From positions 1 to 36,546 of the forward strand of contig SXSK01000313.1 of assembly GCA_005793375.1 (NCBI GenBank): DNA of 36,546 nucleotides. Reading direction: 5' to 3'. This document shows positions 3,977-20,398 of the stretch, piece by piece; position 1 is the first letter of the stretch, and each line of letters opens with the position of its first letter. Source of the DNA: Verrucomicrobiales bacterium (lineage in GTDB: Bacteria; Verrucomicrobiota; Verrucomicrobiia; Limisphaerales; UBA9464). Made by a program: the position numbers and the translations under genes. The notes beneath the pieces were generated by a model. It saw only the letters and a list, made by a program, of their open reading frames with translations, had not been told where the DNA came from and ran no database searches.

Positions 3977-6900
3977 TTACTGCGCGAACCCCAGCCCCAG
4001 CTCCGACAGGTGCCGGTCGATCTTCGCGAGGTCCCAGATGGCGATGTCGCCGTTGTCGCGCGCGATGGCGAGCCGCGGTTCCCTGGGATGCCACGCCAGC
4101 CAATAGACGGTGCCTTCGCGGTCGGGCAACGAGTAGCGCAGTTCCCCGGTGGCGAAATCATGGATATCCAGCCCGCGCATCGACGAGGAAGTAATCGCCA
4201 GCCATCGGCCCGTGTGATTCAAGACGATTTGTCGTCCTCTAGTGCTCGAGCCGCTGATGGCAAAACTTCGGCTCAGTGCCCCGGTCGCCCCGTCAAACAC
4301 TGCGACTTGGTTCTCCTTGGTGAGAAAGGCCAAGGACTCTCCGTCCGGAGTGACCACCACCGGCTGGACAGACCCGTCGCTGGAGTCCGGCGCAAGAGTG
4401 CGTGGGGACTCTTCGCCCCACAGATCTTGAAGGAGCATGGAGTTCTCCAAGTTGAACGCGATCCGTTTTCGATCCGGAAAGATAACGATTCCTGTCGCCA
4501 TTTTCAGAAAGCGGGAACCAATCAAGCGGACTGCGGCCGGGCCGCGGTCCAGGATCTCGTCGACCAATCCGACGTGCCAGACACTGACGCCGTCCCCGCC
4601 GCGTACCAACAGCAAGCCGCGCTCGGGATCCGGCACAAACTGGAGCGACCAGGTCTGGCGATTCGGTGCATTAGTCAGTTGCAGCAATTGTCGCCCGGAT
4701 TCCGCGTCCCAAAGTTGAACCGTGGGCGTGTCCCAGTCTCCCGTGGCGAGCAACCGGCCATCGGGACTGAAGGCCACAGCCTGGCCCGGGCTGGGAAGCA
4801 GCTGGTCTCCTTCCCAGATCCTTCGGCCAGAGCTTGAATCCCACAGGCCCACGGTCCGGTCTTTGGACACGGAGGCCAGCCGCGTGCCGTCGCGACTGAA
4901 GGCGATTCCCGGCACGCTGAGTCGATGTCCGGCCAGCGTCAGACATTCGTCGGCTCCCGCGAATGGGTAGAGGTTCACTCCGAAATCGTCGAAAGTGACC
5001 AGGAACTCTCCTCCCGGAGCAAAGAGTGCCGCAGTGGACATGGTGGACTCCTCGAACACGGCCACCGTCTCATGTTTCTGATAATCCCGGATCACGAAGC
5101 GGCGCTGCTGCGGTCGCGCCACGGCCGCCAGCGTCGTTCCTGGCAGGAACGAGCTGGCACTGGCTGAATTACCCAAACCGGAGAATTCGTCCACGACGCT
5201 GAAGGTCGTGGTGTCGTAGATTCGCGTGCCCTGCATCGCCTGACTTAACAGGTATCGGCCATCCGCGCTGAAGGCAAAGGTGGGATTCGTGCTGAAGCCG
5301 GGCGGGAGTCGGCGGAGAAGTTGCTCGCTTGGCAGATCCCAGATTTCAATCGACGGTTCGGGGTTTCCGGGTTCAGCGTTGCTGATCAGCGCCAGCTTTT
5401 GGCCGTCACGCGAGACTGCTGCCATCTTGTTCCATGAACCCTCGGAGCGTTGGAACGAATGGACCGTCCGCCCCGACTCGGCCTCGATCAAGTTTATCTT
5501 GTGAATGGGCCAGCGGTCGGCCGCCAGCACGACGCTGGAATTGCTGATGGAGAAGCAACCAAAGGCGCCGGGCACTCGCCACGACCCCGCTTGCTGCCAC
5601 TTCCCAGTCAGGTTAGGTGCGAACTCGATCACACGGGCGCCAGCCCGGTCCTCGGTTCCACGAGGCAGTTGAATCGTGATGAGGCGATCTCCCGCGCTAC
5701 TGAAGGCGAAGTGACGCACCGGATCTTCCAACTGCCATCGGCCCACTTCCCGGCCGGAGGGCAACTCGCGAAGTTGGATGCCTCCGCTCGCGTCGCGCAA
5801 GGCGAGCAATCGGCCGTCAGAGCTCATTAGCACCCACTCGAAGCGATTGGTGGCGGGTGCGGACACGATCTGGCGCGGGCGGAACCCGACAAAATCGCCC
5901 ATGCTGGCTACCGCTTCGAGGCGAAGGGCGGCGAGCTGCTTTGCTGGTGTGTCGAGGTCGCGGGCCTTCCGCAAGTGAGCGAAGACCTCCTCGCGGTAGC
6001 CGACCTGTCGCGCGATGCGTGTGGCACGCGCCTGGCCGAGCAGCGAGTGGTAGAGGCTGGCCGTTGCGTCCCTCGCGCTGGCTTCGGCCAGCTTCTCCGA
6101 CGCTTCGGCCTTAGTACGCTGCGTCACTTCGTTGTTCCGCGCGCGTTGCGCGACGAGCATCTGCCACGAACTGATCGCGAGCCCAGCGACCAAGGCCACC
6201 AGGACGGCCGCGCCCGCCGTGAAGGCCAGCTTGTTCCGCCGCCAGGATTTCTGGAACCGATAGACGGTTGAGGGCGGCCGGGCCGTGACGGGTTCATTGT
6301 TGAGATGCCGGCTCAAGTCAGCTGCCAGTCCATTGGCTGTCTCGTAGCGGCGGTTCCGGTCTTTCTCCAACGCCTTCAGGACGATCCAGTCCATATCCCC
6401 CCGCAATTCGCTGCTCAATTGCTCCGGCCGTATCTTGCGGCGTCGAGCCGCGGTCGTCTTCTCGTCTCCTTCCAACGTTCGGAGGCGTGTGGACGGTTTG
6501 GCCGGTGGCTCCTCCTTGATCCGGCGTCGGATTTCATCAAAGCCTCCGCTCAGAAGTTCCTTCGTTTCCAGAGGGGGGCGGCCAACGAGCAATTCATACA
6601 ACAACACGCCCAGGCTGTAGATGTCTGAGCGCGTATCGATGTCTAGCCCGCTCATCTCTGCCTGCTCCGGGCTCATGTAGGACGGCGTCCCGATGAACTG
6701 GCCGTATTGCGTGAAAATCGTTTTCTCCGTCAGCTCGACCTGCGTGGCCTTGGCGATGCCAAAATCGATCACTTTAGGTACCGGCACGCCGTCGTGCGAG
6801 GTGACCATGACGTTCGATGGCTTGATGTCTCGGTGGATGACCCCCTTCTGATGAGCGTGTTGGATGGCCTTGCAGACAGGAATGAACAGCTCCAGCCGTT

Positions 6901-7432
6901 CCCGGGTGGTCAACTGATTCTCATCGCAATACTCGGTGATGCGAACCCCGTTGACCAATTCCATCACGAAGTAAGGCCGGCCTGTGTCAGTGGCGCCGGC
7001 GTCGAGCACCCTGGCGATGTTGGGATGATCCATCAGCGCCAACGCCTGCCTTTCAGCCTCGAACCGGGCCACGACCTGCTGGGTGTCCATCCCCACCTTG
7101 ATAATTTTGAGGGCGACGCGGCGTTTGACCGGCTCCTTTTGCTCGGCCATGTAAACCACGCCGAACCCGCCCGAACCGATTTCCTGGAGCAGCTTGTAAC
7201 GGCCGATCTGGCTCCCGGGCCCTTCCATAATGGAGGGGCTTTCGATCGCCTGAGTCAGACCATCCATAGCGGGACGTGCCATGAATCCGTCGGCCTTTGC
7301 TTCCGCTTGAAATAGAGACTCAACCCGCTCCCGGAGCGTCACGTCGCTCCCGCACGCTTGGTCGACGTACCTCTTGAGTTCCTCTACGGACGCCTCTGGC
7401 GGAGCGTTCATGAATATTTGCAGGTCCGTCAT
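3977..7432 (-). CDS. Membrane Ser/Thr protein kinase with C-terminal WD40-like propeller
   Basis: 1151 aa from the ATG at 7432 (start MTDLQIF); an in-frame codon at 7525 would add an unlikely tail. Residues ~79-370 are a Hanks-type kinase: glycine loop GSGGFG (86-91), VALK with Lys109, HRDIKPSN (200-207, catalytic Asp202), DFG (223-225), SPEQ (254-257) and the DIYSLGVLLYELL helix. A single membrane segment follows at about 403-424. The region after it is helical (~430-510), and from ~515 to the end there are WD40/quinoprotein-like repeats such as LAGHRLSVPGIAFSRDGTRLASVSKDRTVGLWD. The expected topology is cytoplasmic kinase with an extracytoplasmic sensor propeller. All catalytic motifs are intact. 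The ECF sigma factor gene follows 69 bp downstream. The natural inference is a transmembrane sensor that signals to the sigma factor by phosphorylation. Confidence 0.93.
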   Translation of the reverse strand: MTDLQIFMNAPPEASVEELKRYVDQACGSDVTLRERVESLFQAEAKADGFMARPAMDGLTQAIESPSIMEGPGSQIGRYKLLQEIGSGGFGVVYMAEQKEPVKRRVALKIIKVGMDTQQVVARFEAERQALALMDHPNIARVLDAGATDTGRPYFVMELVNGVRITEYCDENQLTTRERLELFIPVCKAIQHAHQKGVIHRDIKPSNVMVTSHDGVPVPKVIDFGIAKATQVELTEKTIFTQYGQFIGTPSYMSPEQAEMSGLDIDTRSDIYSLGVLLYELLVGRPPLETKELLSGGFDEIRRRIKEEPPAKPSTRLRTLEGDEKTTAARRRKIRPEQLSSELRGDMDWIVLKALEKDRNRRYETANGLAADLSRHLNNEPVTARPPSTVYRFQKSWRRNKLAFTAGAAVLVALVAGLAISSWQMLVAQRARNNEVTQRTKAEASEKLAEASARDATASLYHSLLGQARATRIARQVGYREEVFAHLRKARDLDTPAKQLAALRLEAVASMGDFVGFRPRQIVSAPATNRFEWVLMSSDGRLLALRDASGGIQLRELPSGREVGRWQLEDPVRHFAFSSAGDRLITIQLPRGTEDRAGARVIEFAPNLTGKWQQAGSWRVPGAFGCFSISNSSVVLAADRWPIHKINLIEAESGRTVHSFQRSEGSWNKMAAVSRDGQKLALISNAEPGNPEPSIEIWDLPSEQLLRRLPPGFSTNPTFAFSADGRYLLSQAMQGTRIYDTTTFSVVDEFSGLGNSASASSFLPGTTLAAVARPQQRRFVIRDYQKHETVAVFEESTMSTAALFAPGGEFLVTFDDFGVNLYPFAGADECLTLAGHRLSVPGIAFSRDGTRLASVSKDRTVGLWDSSSGRRIWEGDQLLPSPGQAVAFSPDGRLLATGDWDTPTVQLWDAESGRQLLQLTNAPNRQTWSLQFVPDPERGLLLVRGGDGVSVWHVGLVDEILDRGPAAVRLIGSRFLKMATGIVIFPDRKRIAFNLENSMLLQDLWGEESPRTLAPDSSDGSVQPVVVTPDGESLAFLTKENQVAVFDGATGALSRSFAISGSSTRGRQIVLNHTGRWLAITSSSMRGLDIHDFATGELRYSLPDREGTVYWLAWHPREPRLAIARDNGDIAIWDLAKIDRHLSELGLGFAQ

Positions 7433-7841
7433 CGTGGTACTCGTTGCTTTACTATCATGCGTAATAGAGAGAGAAATCACGTCACAAAGAAGCGCGTTTT
7501 CGGCTGAGCCTGAAGGCGGGTGCAACCGGGGTTGCCCCTTTGGTACGGCAAAGCTACCGCTTTGCCCAGCTCCTACCGCCCGTCAGTCAGGCCAAGCGGG
7601 AGGCGCCGCCGCCGCCCTTATCAATAATTGCCCAATTACTTCGCAATACCCTCCTGCAAACGGCTCAGGCCAAAAACTGACCCCGAACCCAGGGTGTGGA
7701 TTTTCTACGGCTGGAGGTGACTGCGGTCGGCAGTAGGATGCGAAACATCTCGCTGACCAGTGTGTCCGGCCCGGAGGCACGGGGGATCAGCCGTTGAAAG
7801 GATGAATTGCCAAACCTCCAGCGCTGAAATAGAAATTCAGA
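7433..7841. other. Intergenic region between divergent kinase and pseudopilin genes
   Basis: About 410 bp without a supported gene. It should hold the promoters for the kinase (minus) and the pseudopilin (plus), but no convincing -35/-10 pair was identified. It contains the 8-bp-stem hairpin at 7547-7566. A 120-codon frame crossing this region overlaps the kinase start and ends in low-complexity residues; it is judged a shadow. Confidence 0.5.
7547..7566. repeat. Perfect hairpin, 8-bp stem with 4-base loop
   Basis: GGCAAAGC and GCTTTGCC flank TACC, giving a perfect 8-bp stem. It lies in the intergenic region next to another palindrome (GCAACCGGGGTTGC, 7522-7535). Neither is followed by a T run, so a REP-like intergenic repeat is more likely than a terminator. 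Confidence 0.6.
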
Positions 7842-15729: not shown

Positions 15730-17460
15730 TTAGTTCAGCTTAGACAGTTCCGCGCGCACTTGTTCAAGTAACGGTTTGACGGTCTTGCGGCTGAAATCGA
15801 ACTGGCAGCCTGCCTTGGCGAATAGCTCAGGCAGTGGACGGGACCCACCCAGAGCGAGTCCTTCCTTGTAAGCGCGGAGAGCTTTAGGGGCGTCCTGTTT
15901 GGAATTTGTCCACACCTGCAAGGCGCCCAATTGAGCGATTCCGTACTCCACGTAATAGAAGGGGTAGAGAAAGATGTGCAGTTGCTTGTGCCAAAGATTT
16001 GCACGCGCGGATTCAAAGCCGCTCCAATCCACGTCGCCGCCGAACCGATCCATCAACTGCAACCAGGCATGACGGCGCTCTTCGCGGCTGTGTTCGGGGT
16101 GGGTGTACAGCCAGTGCTGGAAGGCGTCGACGGTGGCAATCCAGGGGAACACGCCGACAATGCCTTCGAGATGCACGCGGCGGGCGCGCCGGACTTCGGC
16201 GGCAGAATAGAACACATCGAGATGCTCGGCGGGGATCAATTCCATGGCCATCGAGGCGACCTCGCAGAATTCGATGGGTGCGCTGCGGTAGGCGTAGAGT
16301 GGCTCGTCGCGCGTCGCCAACGCATGGAAGGCGTGGCCGGCTTCGTGGAGAATGGTCTCCACATCGCGCTGCAATCCGACAGCATTCATGAAGATGAACG
16401 GAAGTCTGGCTTCGGCGAGGGTGCTTTGGTAACCACCCGGGGCTTTCCCCTTGCGGTTGTCGAGGTCGAGAAGTCTCAACCGCCGCATGGTGGCAAATCC
16501 CTCAGCTAATTCGGGGTCCAACCGGTCGAAAATTGTCTGAGTTCCTTGTTCCATTTCGACCGTGGTATTGAACGGAGCCAGGGGCGGGCGCCCGAGTGGA
16601 TCGACGGCTAAATCCCAAGGGTTCAGTGCCGGCACCCCCAGATTCTGGCGACGCAATCCCTGGATTGTCCGTAAGAGTGGCATCGCTTCGCTCTCGATCG
16701 AATCATGAAAGCGCTCGCAATCCGCCGGCGTGTAATCAAACCGGCCTCGAAGTCGAAAGGCATAATCGCGATAATTCTCGAATCCCGCATTGCGTGCACA
16801 CCGATGGCGGAGACGGACCAGTCCGTCCATCAATTCATCCAATCGATCAACCTCCTTTAGTCGACGTTCGGTCACCCGCTTCCAGGCCTCTTCCCGCGTC
16901 GCACGATCCGTGTCTTCCTGGAATCTCCCCATGGCCACCAGGGTGCGTTCCTCTCCCCGAAAATCCACCGTCAAGTTCCCGGTGAGCTTGTTGTATTCAT
17001 TGCCGAGTTTGGCTTCCTCGGTTTCCAACGGGACATTTTCATCGCGATACAACTCCACGCGTACGGCAGTGTCACGGTCGAGCACTTCAAAGCGCTCCTT
17101 GGGGAGCTGAGGGCGCATCGGGTGCTCCAGGAAACACTTGGACAACTGGAACTGCTTGGGCTTGAGCTGTGGCTCGACATGTTCCACAAAGTGCAGGTAA
17201 GCCTTTTCGGCTTCTGGGCTGTCCGTGTGGCAAGTCATGGCGATGTAACGACGGCTGCCTTCCTCGTCGAGTGCGGCATCCAGTTCTCCACGATCCAGGA
17301 GCCATTGTTCCAGCTCGGCGATCGAAGTCGCACGGGCCAGTTGGGCTTCCAGTTGGTCGAACAAGGGTGCGATCTGTGCCCACTCCCCCAGGTTAGCCAG
17401 GGCAGGAACAAATCGGCGGGGCGAATGCGGCGGCAGTTGTCCGAACGGAAGCAAACTCAT
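15730..17460 (-). CDS. M3 family oligoendopeptidase (PepF-like)
   Basis: 576 aa from the ATG at 17460, which has GGGG six to seven bases upstream; an in-frame TTG at 17472 is rejected. The zinc site is intact: HEAGH at residues 372-376, with the third ligand Glu400 in the EFCEVASMAMEL helix. The C-terminal YPFYYVEYGIAQLGALQVW segment carries the Tyr/His residues that close the substrate channel in M3B peptidases. There is no signal peptide, so it is a cytoplasmic enzyme that degrades short peptides. The length is typical of oligoendopeptidase F. It sits 62 bp downstream of aroF and five bases upstream of a rhomboid gene on the same strand. Confidence 0.93.
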   Translation of the reverse strand: MSLLPFGQLPPHSPRRFVPALANLGEWAQIAPLFDQLEAQLARATSIAELEQWLLDRGELDAALDEEGSRRYIAMTCHTDSPEAEKAYLHFVEHVEPQLKPKQFQLSKCFLEHPMRPQLPKERFEVLDRDTAVRVELYRDENVPLETEEAKLGNEYNKLTGNLTVDFRGEERTLVAMGRFQEDTDRATREEAWKRVTERRLKEVDRLDELMDGLVRLRHRCARNAGFENYRDYAFRLRGRFDYTPADCERFHDSIESEAMPLLRTIQGLRRQNLGVPALNPWDLAVDPLGRPPLAPFNTTVEMEQGTQTIFDRLDPELAEGFATMRRLRLLDLDNRKGKAPGGYQSTLAEARLPFIFMNAVGLQRDVETILHEAGHAFHALATRDEPLYAYRSAPIEFCEVASMAMELIPAEHLDVFYSAAEVRRARRVHLEGIVGVFPWIATVDAFQHWLYTHPEHSREERRHAWLQLMDRFGGDVDWSGFESARANLWHKQLHIFLYPFYYVEYGIAQLGALQVWTNSKQDAPKALRAYKEGLALGGSRPLPELFAKAGCQFDFSRKTVKPLLEQVRAELSKLN

Positions 17461-17522
17461 GACAAACCCCAATCATGGGCGACATCGAGGCTGTGGGCAA
17501 GACAGTCGACCACTTGTCGCCC

Positions 17523-18536
17523 TTATTCTCGACCGACGGCGGCAGTGATGGGTTTGAGGTCTTCCATGAGCCGTCCGAAGGCCTCCAGGGAAAGCTGCTG
17601 AGCACTGTCGCTCAAGGCTTCCTTGGGATTCGGATGCACTTCGATCAGCAGGGCATCGGCTCCCATGGCGACCGCTCCTTTGCAGAAAGCCGAGACCAGA
17701 TCGGCCCGTCCACCGCCCTGACTTGGGTCGACGACGACGGGCAGGTGCGACTGATTTTTCACGATGGGAACGGCGCCAAGGTCGAGCGTGTTTCGGGTGT
17801 ACGTTTCGAAGGTGCGGATGCCGCGTTCACAGAAGAGGAGGTTGCGATTGCCATTGGCGAGGACGTATTCTCCAGCCAACAACCATTCTTCGATTTTCAT
17901 GGAAAGGCCACGTTTGAGCAGCACTGGTTTGCCAGTTTTGGCGGCAGCAATGAGCAATTGGAAATTTTGAGCGTTCCGCGCACCGATCTGGAGGATATCG
18001 GCGTATTCGGCGATCAGTTCGGTGTGGTCTTCCGACAGTAGTTCTGTGATGACTGGGAGACCGGTTTCGCGTCGGGCTTTGGCCAAGAGTTTGAGGCCTT
18101 TTTCGCCCAGACCCTGGAATTCGTAGGGCGATGTTCGGGGTTTGAAGGCGCCTCCCCGTAGGATCGTGGCGCCTGCCTTGGCCACCGCTTCGGCTGTGGC
18201 CATCAATTGTTTTTCGCTTTCGACGGAACAAGGGCCTGCCATGACCTGGACTTTTCGGCCGCCGATCACTGTCCCCCGGACATCAATGTTGGAATCGGGA
18301 GGATGGGCCTCTCGGCTGACCAGTTTGAATCGCTTCTGGACTGGGGTGACTGACTCGACTTGGGACCACGCAATCAGCGATTCGAGGGATTTATTGGAGC
18401 GTTCGTCGCCAATGGCGCCGATCACAGTCCGGGCCACGCCTCGCATGACATGGGGTTTGTAGCCGAGTCGTCGGATTTCCTGTAGCACGGCGGTTTCGTC
18501 TTTTTTGGTCGTTTGAGCTTTTAGTACGATAATCAT
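17523..18536 (-). CDS. aroF: 3-deoxy-7-phosphoheptulonate (DAHP) synthase, type I beta
   Basis: 337 aa, ATG start. It condenses phosphoenolpyruvate with erythrose 4-phosphate, the first step of the shikimate pathway. Residues 1-~70 (MIIVLKAQTTKKDE...) form the ferredoxin-like N-terminal domain of type I beta enzymes, which in relatives mediates feedback control by aromatic amino acids. The TIM-barrel part shows AGPCSVES (100-107), RGGAFKPRTSPYEFQG (127-142), KRGL and the metal-site segments FCERGIRTFE and DPSQGGGR. All key residues seen are intact. Upstream on the same strand lie an aromatic-rich leader ORF and a terminator, so expression is probably controlled by attenuation. The peptidase and rhomboid genes follow. 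Confidence 0.96.
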   Translation of the reverse strand: MIIVLKAQTTKKDETAVLQEIRRLGYKPHVMRGVARTVIGAIGDERSNKSLESLIAWSQVESVTPVQKRFKLVSREAHPPDSNIDVRGTVIGGRKVQVMAGPCSVESEKQLMATAEAVAKAGATILRGGAFKPRTSPYEFQGLGEKGLKLLAKARRETGLPVITELLSEDHTELIAEYADILQIGARNAQNFQLLIAAAKTGKPVLLKRGLSMKIEEWLLAGEYVLANGNRNLLFCERGIRTFETYTRNTLDLGAVPIVKNQSHLPVVVDPSQGGGRADLVSAFCKGAVAMGADALLIEVHPNPKEALSDSAQQLSLEAFGRLMEDLKPITAAVGRE

Positions 18537-18581: not shown

Positions 18582-18610
18582 AAAAAAGCCGCAGGCGTTC
18601 GGCCTGCGGC
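18582..18610 (-). terminator. Rho-independent terminator in the aroF leader (attenuator)
   Basis: Read on the minus strand, GCCGCAGGC and GCCTGCGGC form a perfect 9-bp G+C-rich stem with a 5-base loop, followed at once by six T residues. It lies between the leader ORF and the aroF start, 46 bp before the latter. There is no gene upstream on this strand to terminate, since dnaB runs the other way, so it must act on the aroF transcript itself. Its 5' arm is also complementary to the segment at 18644-18654. Confidence 0.9.
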
Positions 18611-18629
18611 GGATTGTGGAGGTGTCAAG

Positions 18630-18710
18630 TTAACCACCCACAAGCCAGCAGGCCGGGCCAAAATAGAACCCGTAGAACCAAAAGCTGGATTGTGAGCACA
18701 CCGATCGCAT
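18630..18710 (-). CDS. aroF leader peptide, aromatic-rich (attenuation)
   Basis: A 26-codon ORF too short for standard gene finding. It starts at the ATG at 18710 (GAGG lies just upstream, with short spacing) or at a GTG at 18701, which has better spacing to the same GAGG. Residues 10-17 are FWFYGFYF and residue 22 is Trp, so 8 of 26 residues are Phe, Trp or Tyr. It ends with TAA, about 20 bases before the terminator hairpin. This is the architecture of amino-acid leader peptides such as those before trp and pheA operons: ribosome stalling at the aromatic codons reports charged tRNA shortage. Product control of DAHP synthase by Phe, Tyr and Trp is exactly what the codon mix suggests. It is probably a cis regulator without another function. 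Confidence 0.85.
   Translation of the reverse strand: MRSVCSQSSFWFYGFYFGPACWLVGG
18644..18654 (-). promoter_or_regulatory. Antiterminator segment of the aroF attenuator
   Basis: On the minus strand GGCCTGCTGGC pairs with GCCGCAGGCC, the 5' arm of the terminator: seven continuous pairs, one bulged T, then three more. It begins a few bases after the FWFYGFYF codons. A ribosome stalled there would leave it free to pair and block the terminator, whereas one reaching the stop codon would cover or pass it. A 5-base complement (CCAGC, 18684-18688) to part of it could form the alternative pause hairpin, but that is weaker. Confidence 0.75.
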
Positions 18711-18844
18711 TTCCTCATGAATGTGGCAAAGGGATTCTAAACGTCAAATCCAGAGCGGCCGCGAGGGGTGATAAGATTCCATTGGCCCGATCTGAGCAAC
18801 TTGCGGATAACGCTGTGTTGCTCTGTAAGAGATTCCACGGCGAA

Positions 18845-20398
18845 ATGAGCGGCGTGTCTGATTCCATTCCCGATCCGAGTAGCGAACCCTTGGCGGAACC
18901 GCCCCCGGATTTTTTTGAGGCATTGCCGCAGGCGCCCGAACCTGTGATGGCACCCAGCGTGCCGCCTCCGGAGGCCCCTGATCTCCAGAAAGCGCCCAAA
19001 CGACGCCAAAAGAATGTGCCGTCGACCACGGTTGGGCGTATTGACCGCCTGCCCCCGCATTCGATTGAGGCGGAACAAGGAGTTTTGGGGTGTGTTCTGC
19101 TATCTCCCAATGAGGCCATGGGGTTGTGTTTGGAGAAGCTCAAGAGCGGTTCAGAGGCGTTTTACGATCTGAGGCATCGGACGCTCTTTGAAATGCTGTC
19201 AGGCATGTATGATTCCAAGCAACCGATCGATTTGATCACGGTCCAGCAACACCTCAAAGATCAAGGGCAATTGGAAAGTGTTGGCGGTTTGGTGTATCTA
19301 GCCAACCTTCAGGATGCCGTTCCCTCCGCCTCCCATCTAGAGTATTACATTGGGATCATGCGCGAAAAATTCGTGCTGCGCCGCATGATTCAAGCCTGCG
19401 GCGGGGTTATTTCCCGGGTGCACGAATATGAGGGTGACGTGGATTCTCTTTTGGACGAAGTGGAGCGTGATATTCTGCGAATTTCTGAGGATCGCGAGGA
19501 AGGGAGCACGCGGGGAATGAAAGAACTGGTGACCTCAGCGATCAAGATCATTGAGGATTTCCACAAGCGGCAGGGGGCGTTGAGTGGTGTGCCGACGGGG
19601 TTCAGCGACCTCGACAAGATGACCAATGGGATGCACGCAGGGGAAATGGTGGTCATCGCCGCGCGCCCCAGCATGGGCAAGACGTCCTTGGCGATGAATA
19701 TCGCGGAGCATGTTTCTGTGAACGAAAAGCTTCCGGTGGGGGTCTTTAGCCTGGAAATGACCTCGGAATCCTTGGTCATGCGTCTGTTGTGTTCCCTGGC
19801 CAAGGTCAATATGAAGACTGTCCGGGACGGATTCATGACCGAGGGCGACATGCGCCGCTTGTTTCAGGCGGCGAGCAAACTCTCGAAGGCGCCATTGCAC
19901 ATCGATGATACGCCAGGGTTGAGCATTTTGCAGATGCGTGCCCGAGCTCGCCGGATGTGGCAACAGCATGGGATTAAGTTATTTGTGATTGATTACCTCC
20001 AGTTATTGCATTCGAGCTCAAAAAAAGCTAAGGACAACCGCCAACAGGAAGTCGCGGAGATTTCGGCGGGTGTCAAAGCCTTGGCCAAGGAGCTCCAACT
20101 TCCAGTCATCGTTCTATGTCAGCTGAACCGGGAATTGGAAAAGGACAAGAACCGCAAGCCTCGGCTGTCGGATCTTCGGGAATCCGGCTCGATTGAACAG
20201 GACGCGGATCTGGTGGGGTTGTTGTACAAGGCGGCGGTTGAGGAGGATGAAGAGGCTCCGGCAGAACCTCATGAGGCGATCCCGGTGAACCTTTTGATCG
20301 CCAAACAACGCAATGGGCCGACAGGCGATGTTCGCTTGACGTTCTTAAAGAGCTTTACCCGGTTTGAGAGCGCAGCCAAAGTCGATGCCGAAGACTGA
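18845..20398 (+). CDS. dnaB: Replicative DNA helicase DnaB
   Basis: 517 aa from the ATG at 18845. The frame remains open back to 18614, but that part overlaps the aroF leader and lacks features. Residues 1-~60 are Pro-rich and disordered, longer than in many relatives. The N-terminal DnaB domain follows (PHSIEAEQGVLGCVLLSP). The RecA-like C-terminal domain carries Walker A ARPSMGKTS (273-281), Walker B LFVIDYLQLL (379-388), CQLNRELE and the DLRESGSIEQDAD segment. This hexameric helicase unwinds DNA ahead of the replisome. It is divergent from aroF and heads a plus-strand run with bamA, skp and ispD, though the 92-bp gap to bamA leaves room for a separate promoter. Confidence 0.96.
   Translation: MSGVSDSIPDPSSEPLAEPPPDFFEALPQAPEPVMAPSVPPPEAPDLQKAPKRRQKNVPSTTVGRIDRLPPHSIEAEQGVLGCVLLSPNEAMGLCLEKLKSGSEAFYDLRHRTLFEMLSGMYDSKQPIDLITVQQHLKDQGQLESVGGLVYLANLQDAVPSASHLEYYIGIMREKFVLRRMIQACGGVISRVHEYEGDVDSLLDEVERDILRISEDREEGSTRGMKELVTSAIKIIEDFHKRQGALSGVPTGFSDLDKMTNGMHAGEMVVIAARPSMGKTSLAMNIAEHVSVNEKLPVGVFSLEMTSESLVMRLLCSLAKVNMKTVRDGFMTEGDMRRLFQAASKLSKAPLHIDDTPGLSILQMRARARRMWQQHGIKLFVIDYLQLLHSSSKKAKDNRQQEVAEISAGVKALAKELQLPVIVLCQLNRELEKDKNRKPRLSDLRESGSIEQDADLVGLLYKAAVEEDEEAPAEPHEAIPVNLLIAKQRNGPTGDVRLTFLKSFTRFESAAKVDAED

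Follow-up and report, generated by a model that had tools for sequence, protein, structure and literature searches.

A predicted ribosome-mediated attenuator with an aromatic leader peptide upstream of aroF in Verrucomicrobiota

The region upstream of aroF was analyzed in a stretch of 36,546 nucleotides (nt) from a Verrucomicrobiales bacterium of the order Limisphaerales (GenBank assembly GCA_005793375.1, contig SXSK01000313.1, positions 1 to 36,546), which is referred to here as the window. The element that precedes this gene on the minus strand is very probably a ribosome-mediated transcription attenuator, as had been proposed in an initial annotation of the window. This reading draws on the comparison of sequences, in which a leader open reading frame (ORF) with an aromatic bias, a terminator, a species-specific pairing between the two, a fold of the ORF itself and a geometry suited to ribosome stalling were all found. 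The initial annotation's reading as an attenuator is supported; it missed three points, namely the hairpin within the ORF as a third structure, the probable leaderless start of the leader and the spread of the element beyond the order.

The leader and its pairings in the window

The features of the element, numbered as segments 1 to 4 in the manner of classical attenuators, are as follows.
17523..18536, minus strand: aroF, 3-deoxy-D-arabino-heptulosonate 7-phosphate (DAHP) synthase of type Ibeta with an N-terminal ferredoxin-like regulatory domain (PF00793, expectation value (E) 4.8e-75; PF18152, E 8.1e-19).
18582..18610, minus strand: 3:4 intrinsic terminator, GCCGCAGGC-CGAAC-GCCTGCGGC-TTTTTT (terminator prediction; present in 38 of 40 relatives with leaders).
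18601..18614, minus strand: segment 3, predicted antiterminator 3' arm, overlapping the terminator 5' arm (duplex computation).
18630..18710, minus strand: leader peptide ORF of 26 codons, MRSVCSQSSFWFYGFYFGPACWLVGG (ORF call and in-frame aromatic bias across 40 leaders).
18636..18655, minus strand: segment 2, predicted antiterminator 5' arm, within the ORF (core GGCCTGC-U-GGC at 18654-18644).
18636..18697, minus strand: 1:2 hairpin, or anti-antiterminator, a predicted self-fold of the ORF that masks segment 2 (fold).
18660..18683, minus strand: aromatic codon run FWFYGFYF, inside the leader ORF.
18720..18747, minus strand: predicted sigma-70-type promoter (-35 TTGACG at 18747-18742, 16-nt spacer, -10 CACATT at 18725-18720).

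The 26-codon ORF with its FWFYGFYF run, as first annotated, is present at 18710-18630. The terminator described with it was also recovered, with a stem of 9 base pairs (bp), 8 of them G-C, formed by 18610-18602 and 18596-18588 around a loop of 5, and with six T at 18587-18582; the distance from the T run to the aroF ATG (18536) was counted as 45 nt. When the 220 nt upstream of aroF were shuffled with dinucleotides preserved, a short ORF with 7 aromatics in 8 codons was obtained in 0/3000 shuffles, and a 9-bp terminator likewise in 0/3000. The attenuator stretch is present once in the genome and is therefore not a repeat. The pairing of 18644-18654 with the terminator 5' arm, annotated as 10 positions with one bulge, was reproduced as 10 pairs between GGCCTGCTGGC and GCCGCAGGCC with one bulged base, and the optimal 2:3 duplex is longer, joining 18655-18636 to 18614-18601 at -24.7 kcal/mol.

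Conservation and compensating pairing in the order and beyond

AroF orthologues (74-100% identity) were collected from 28 of 58 related genomes and from public contigs of Limisphaerales/Pedosphaera, Verrucomicrobiota, and gave a comparison set of 45 non-redundant regions upstream of aroF, of which the L037 region ends at a contig end. The initial annotation had held that close relatives lacking an aromatic run or a terminator would speak against an attenuator; the comparison found the aromatic leader ORF in 40 of the 45 regions and a terminator in 38 of those 40 leaders, usually 15-25 nt past the leader stop codon, with an antiterminator that covaries. Phe, Tyr and Trp together make up 26% of the codons in frame in the 40 leaders, versus 7% and 11% in the two alternative frames, and each leader has on average 6.8 aromatic codons versus 2.6 in shuffled sequences. 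Phenylalanine (Phe) codons occur in 40/40 leaders, tyrosine (Tyr) codons in 38/40 and tryptophan (Trp) codons in 34/40. The peptides are highly variable, yet the aromatic run is kept (e.g., MSRAFYVFSFWSGYFSRAGWRVDA, VSFQGTQFFVFFSGWYWFTSPRRLRVLGIC and MNYGFWQFGSGGYYFSRSACWLAGLR).

A covariance model of the leader matches 129 of 320 genomes of the order, and in close relatives strong full-length matches are located before aroF. Thirty lower-scoring regions within the order were read downstream, and their aromatic leaders all precede aroF with the sole exception of L252. In that locus (L252:1538-1669, minus strand; G666:C279), a complete aromatic leader with a terminator stands before recF; a moved gene, a relic and a real second target are the candidate explanations. 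On reading, covariance-model matches outside aroF in relatives were nearly all bare terminators or chance, apart from the leuA leader of the window's genome described below.

In 38/38 leaders, the terminator 5' arm has its pairing partner in the 3' part of the ORF. An RNAalifold consensus of the leader alignment recovers the terminator alone; it misses the antiterminator because the register of the latter shifts between lineages, and a swap test was used for this reason. In this test, the partners of segments 2 and 3 were exchanged between species and duplex energies of own and swapped pairs were compared. Own antiterminator pairs had a mean of -22.6 kcal/mol versus -18.6 kcal/mol when swapped (38 leaders, p 5e-5), and the advantage persists in 11 leaders with <55% identity (p 7e-4). 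The same sign is seen (p 0.001-0.03) for the bases next to the terminator stem, on which the stem itself places little constraint. The ORF is also folded, with a mean z of -3.1 against dinucleotide shuffles in the 40 leaders and of -2.1 against synonymous recodings. Taken together, the predicted ORF fold, antiterminator and terminator give the classical set of 1:2, 2:3 and 3:4 pairings. Assuming a ribosome footprint of 14-15 nt on each side (14 nt ahead of the A site), at least one aromatic codon lies where a stalled ribosome leaves segment 2 free in 38/38 leaders with terminators; in the window, a stall at any of the first four codons of the run (F, W, F, Y) would free it. On average, 65% of segment 2 would lie under a ribosome at the stop codon.

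Leaders were also found outside the order. DAHP synthase genes also follow the matches that come from further orders of the class (L222-L227, L231, L262, L265, L266, L268) and those from families elsewhere in the phylum (L270, L271, L274, L283). The aroF upstream regions of Chthoniobacterales/Spartobacteria (60-67% identity) have no leader. Elsewhere in the phylum, about 15 of 64 regions upstream of aroF homologues carry an obvious Phe/Tyr-rich ORF, e.g., MNRYFYGFYFYFTGLMGRARLP, behind which a terminator was not always detected by a simple scan. Most of the terminator cores outside the order are unlike those of the order (GCCGCCC, CCGTCCCGC, CCGCGTGTCC, GGGCTCCGTGAC, CCCCGCT and GCCCGCT), and the ORF has changed to match. 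Over 24 leaders beyond the order, own pairs reached -17.9 versus -13.8 kcal/mol for swapped pairs (z -6.6), and the test over all 62 leaders gave z -12.5. This result, obtained with differing terminator cores, is the strongest comparative evidence that the 2:3 pairing is selected. The 2:3 pairing is poor in a few of the outside leaders as parsed (L308, L324 and L283). Most phylum-search matches at E 1e-6 to 1e-4 were bare terminators and were dismissed.

Leader start, the leucine-coded version and neighboring genes

The leaders of the order have a TTGAC -35 box, a spacer of 16-17 nt and a -10 box. This promoter position is common to 40/40 leaders, most of them with a better -10 than the window (e.g., TAnnnT); as the script demanded TTGAC in the right range, finding the box is in part a product of the search, and the result is that all 40 leaders could satisfy it. 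The start codon lies 6-9 nt past the -10 in about 35 of the 40 leaders (4 of these after the start was shifted to an upstream in-frame codon) and 10-13 nt past it in the remainder, with no room for a Shine-Dalgarno site. Given this spacing, the leader mRNA is therefore probably leaderless, with transcription starting at the start codon or within a few nt of it. In the window, the leader ATG lies 9 nt past the -10, where a Shine-Dalgarno site would not fit, and transcription would be expected to start at about 18713-18711. Outside the class, purine-rich stretches resembling Shine-Dalgarno sites precede the ATG of L270, L271 and L274. The leaders L270, L271, L274 and L283 have such stretches and different terminator cores, and being leaderless may be a trait of the window's class alone.

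In the genome of the window itself, a weak covariance-model match (G000:C64:14498-14627; L155:699-828) consists of VNLLCNLRLAVIALLLSRAAVGVC and a terminator before a gene that we take, from its sequence, to be leuA. Leucine (Leu)-rich leaders of the same layout were found by script before leuA in 24 of 30 orthologues of the order, the window's genome included, and L188 was added by eye. As a side observation, the leuA leader appears to be leaderless too. As far as these sequences indicate, the type of regulatory codon follows the pathway, which attenuation predicts and the rival readings discussed below do not. Inspection by eye of pheA, trpE and pabB in the window's genome did not reveal such a leader.

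Among the neighbors of aroF, dnaB lies upstream and is divergent. Its ORF (18614-20398, plus strand) opens mechanically at a TTG at 18614 and thereby overlaps the attenuator on the opposite strand; an ATG near 18845 is more likely to be the dnaB start. A gene of peptidase family M3 (15730-17472, minus strand) follows aroF in the same orientation at a distance of about 50 nt; it may share the aroF transcript and might hence also be under the attenuator. Farther away, 3977-7525 (minus strand) encodes a protein of 1182 amino acids in which a Ser/Thr protein kinase domain is joined to WD40 repeats.

Proposed mechanism, alternatives and related systems

In the proposed mechanism, the transcript would start at the leader start codon or a few bases from it, a ribosome would load immediately and it would trail the polymerase. 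With sufficient charged tRNA-Phe, -Tyr and -Trp, the ribosome would reach the stop codon and cover much of segment 2, segment 3 would pair with segment 4 and transcription would stop at 18582. If any one of the three tRNAs were uncharged, the ribosome would stall in the FWFY run and open the 1:2 hairpin of the ORF; segment 2 would then pair with segment 3, no terminator would form and aroF would be transcribed. Without translation, the 1:2 hairpin would form and termination would be the default. We infer the transcription start, the stalling and the control by charging, as well as which of the three amino acids is most important. The wider proposal is that attenuation of aroF, the first gene of aromatic amino acid synthesis, is old and general in Verrucomicrobiota, that its mixed peptide acts as an OR gate for the charging of the Phe, Tyr and Trp tRNAs, that it is leaderless in the window's class and that a version with Leu codons in the same arrangement has come to stand before leuA; the balance of evidence tips slightly in its favor.

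Several observations weigh against an attenuator. In the window, the -10 box CACATT is weak and matches at 3/6 positions only, a ribosome at the stop codon covers 60% of segment 2, and the ORF fold is only mildly better than dinucleotide shuffles (z -1.7; z -1.3 against synonymous recodings). Because this fold is weaker, support for the putative 1:2 hairpin lies in the leader family more than in the window as a single case. The leader is absent in 5/45 orthologues (L004, L005, L034, L051 and L062). In L003 and L014, the hairpin lacks a proper U run, the terminator of L025 does not include the covarying segment, and segment 2 of L039 would stay exposed with a ribosome at the stop codon. In L034, the stretch about 80 nt ahead of aroF retains the promoter and terminator, and its leader ORF has nearly vanished; it looks as though this lineage had given up attenuation.

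Other explanations were weighed against the same data. Terminators of the bare GCCGCAGG/GCCGCCGG type recur often elsewhere in these genomes, as weak partial matches, and the element could in principle be a mere terminator of a short or divergent transcript beside an ORF that arose by chance in GC-rich sequence, without any part in regulation. This is highly improbable, since with dnaB divergent there is no same-strand gene that the terminator could close off, both the compensating pairing and the aromatic ORF are kept across the order and beyond, and none of the 3000 shuffles yielded such an ORF. The strong folding of the ORF region would also suit a structured RNA that binds a ligand or tRNA directly, such as a riboswitch or T-box, with the ORF incidental. 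However, the fold shows no conserved primary sequence other than the pairing and the aromatic codons, the enrichment of such codons is confined to one frame, and a Leu-coded version stands before leuA, all of which leave such an RNA with very little credibility. Rfam gave no match above the gathering score in the window; at E 1, a search of five loci returned nothing but a chance microRNA match (E 0.08), and Trp_leader, Phe_leader, Leu_leader and T-box were unmatched. Attenuation through aroF translation or Rho in place of intrinsic termination is very unlikely: it would agree with the hairpins of L003 and L014, but nearly all other leaders have a U-rich tract behind the stem, and in the leaders of the order the hairpin ends 27-77 nt upstream of aroF and not over its start.

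A ribosome-mediated attenuator of this kind follows the three-pairing scheme of the Escherichia coli trpL and pheL attenuators. The shared principle is that of 1:2, 2:3 and 3:4 alternatives set by stalling at end-product codons. The E. coli leaders differ in that they are not leaderless and that each answers to a single control amino acid and governs a branch operon; aroF of that species is instead under TyrR/TrpR-type repression. The work on these attenuators (Yanofsky, 1981, and others) is cited in PMC11802643. Neshat et al. (2014, via PMC11802643; predicted in PMC4046766) have reported the aroR-aroF attenuator of Corynebacterium glutamicum, in which a Phe-Tyr-Phe leader precedes the DAHP synthase gene and stalling raises transcription. 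The aroR leader resembles those studied here in having an aromatic leader peptide before this gene; unlike them, it belongs to another phylum, contains only F and Y and reportedly responds to Phe and not to Tyr, whereas the run here is longer and mostly has all three aromatics. The ilvBNC attenuator of C. glutamicum (ilvL; PMC11857589) also combines a leaderless peptide, an anti-antiterminator over the ORF, an antiterminator and a terminator, and differs by its branched-chain codons, operon and phylum. The trpL transcript of Sinorhizobium meliloti likewise starts at the ATG of the leader ORF; that leader has Trp codons, precedes trpE and has further functions as RNA and peptide (PMC7298713). 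Predicted attenuators before DAHP synthase operons in Vibrio, Thermus and others (Table 7 of PMC1173090) share the alternative terminator before the gene; the operons there have tyrA, and the part of that source consulted describes neither Verrucomicrobiota nor leader peptides.

In 2010, a survey still listed leader peptides from Proteobacteria and Actinobacteria alone, with Firmicutes as a new addition (PMC2965389). For Verrucomicrobia and leader-peptide attenuation, no relevant paper was found, as judged by titles and abstracts in a literature coverage that is incomplete. The remark in the initial annotation that it knew of no description for aroF in this phylum should be qualified, as aroF attenuation as such is already known from C. 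glutamicum. No earlier description appears to exist of the three-amino-acid leader or of the spread through the phylum. Together with the leaderless layout, these two features make the element more than routine. Overall, the finding would add a phylum in which both the common aromatic pathway and leucine synthesis are under leader-peptide attenuation. It would offer a route to predicting how amino acids exert control in bacteria that are mostly uncultured, and would supply natural leaders with three regulatory amino acids in which the logic of such control and leaderless coupling may be tested.
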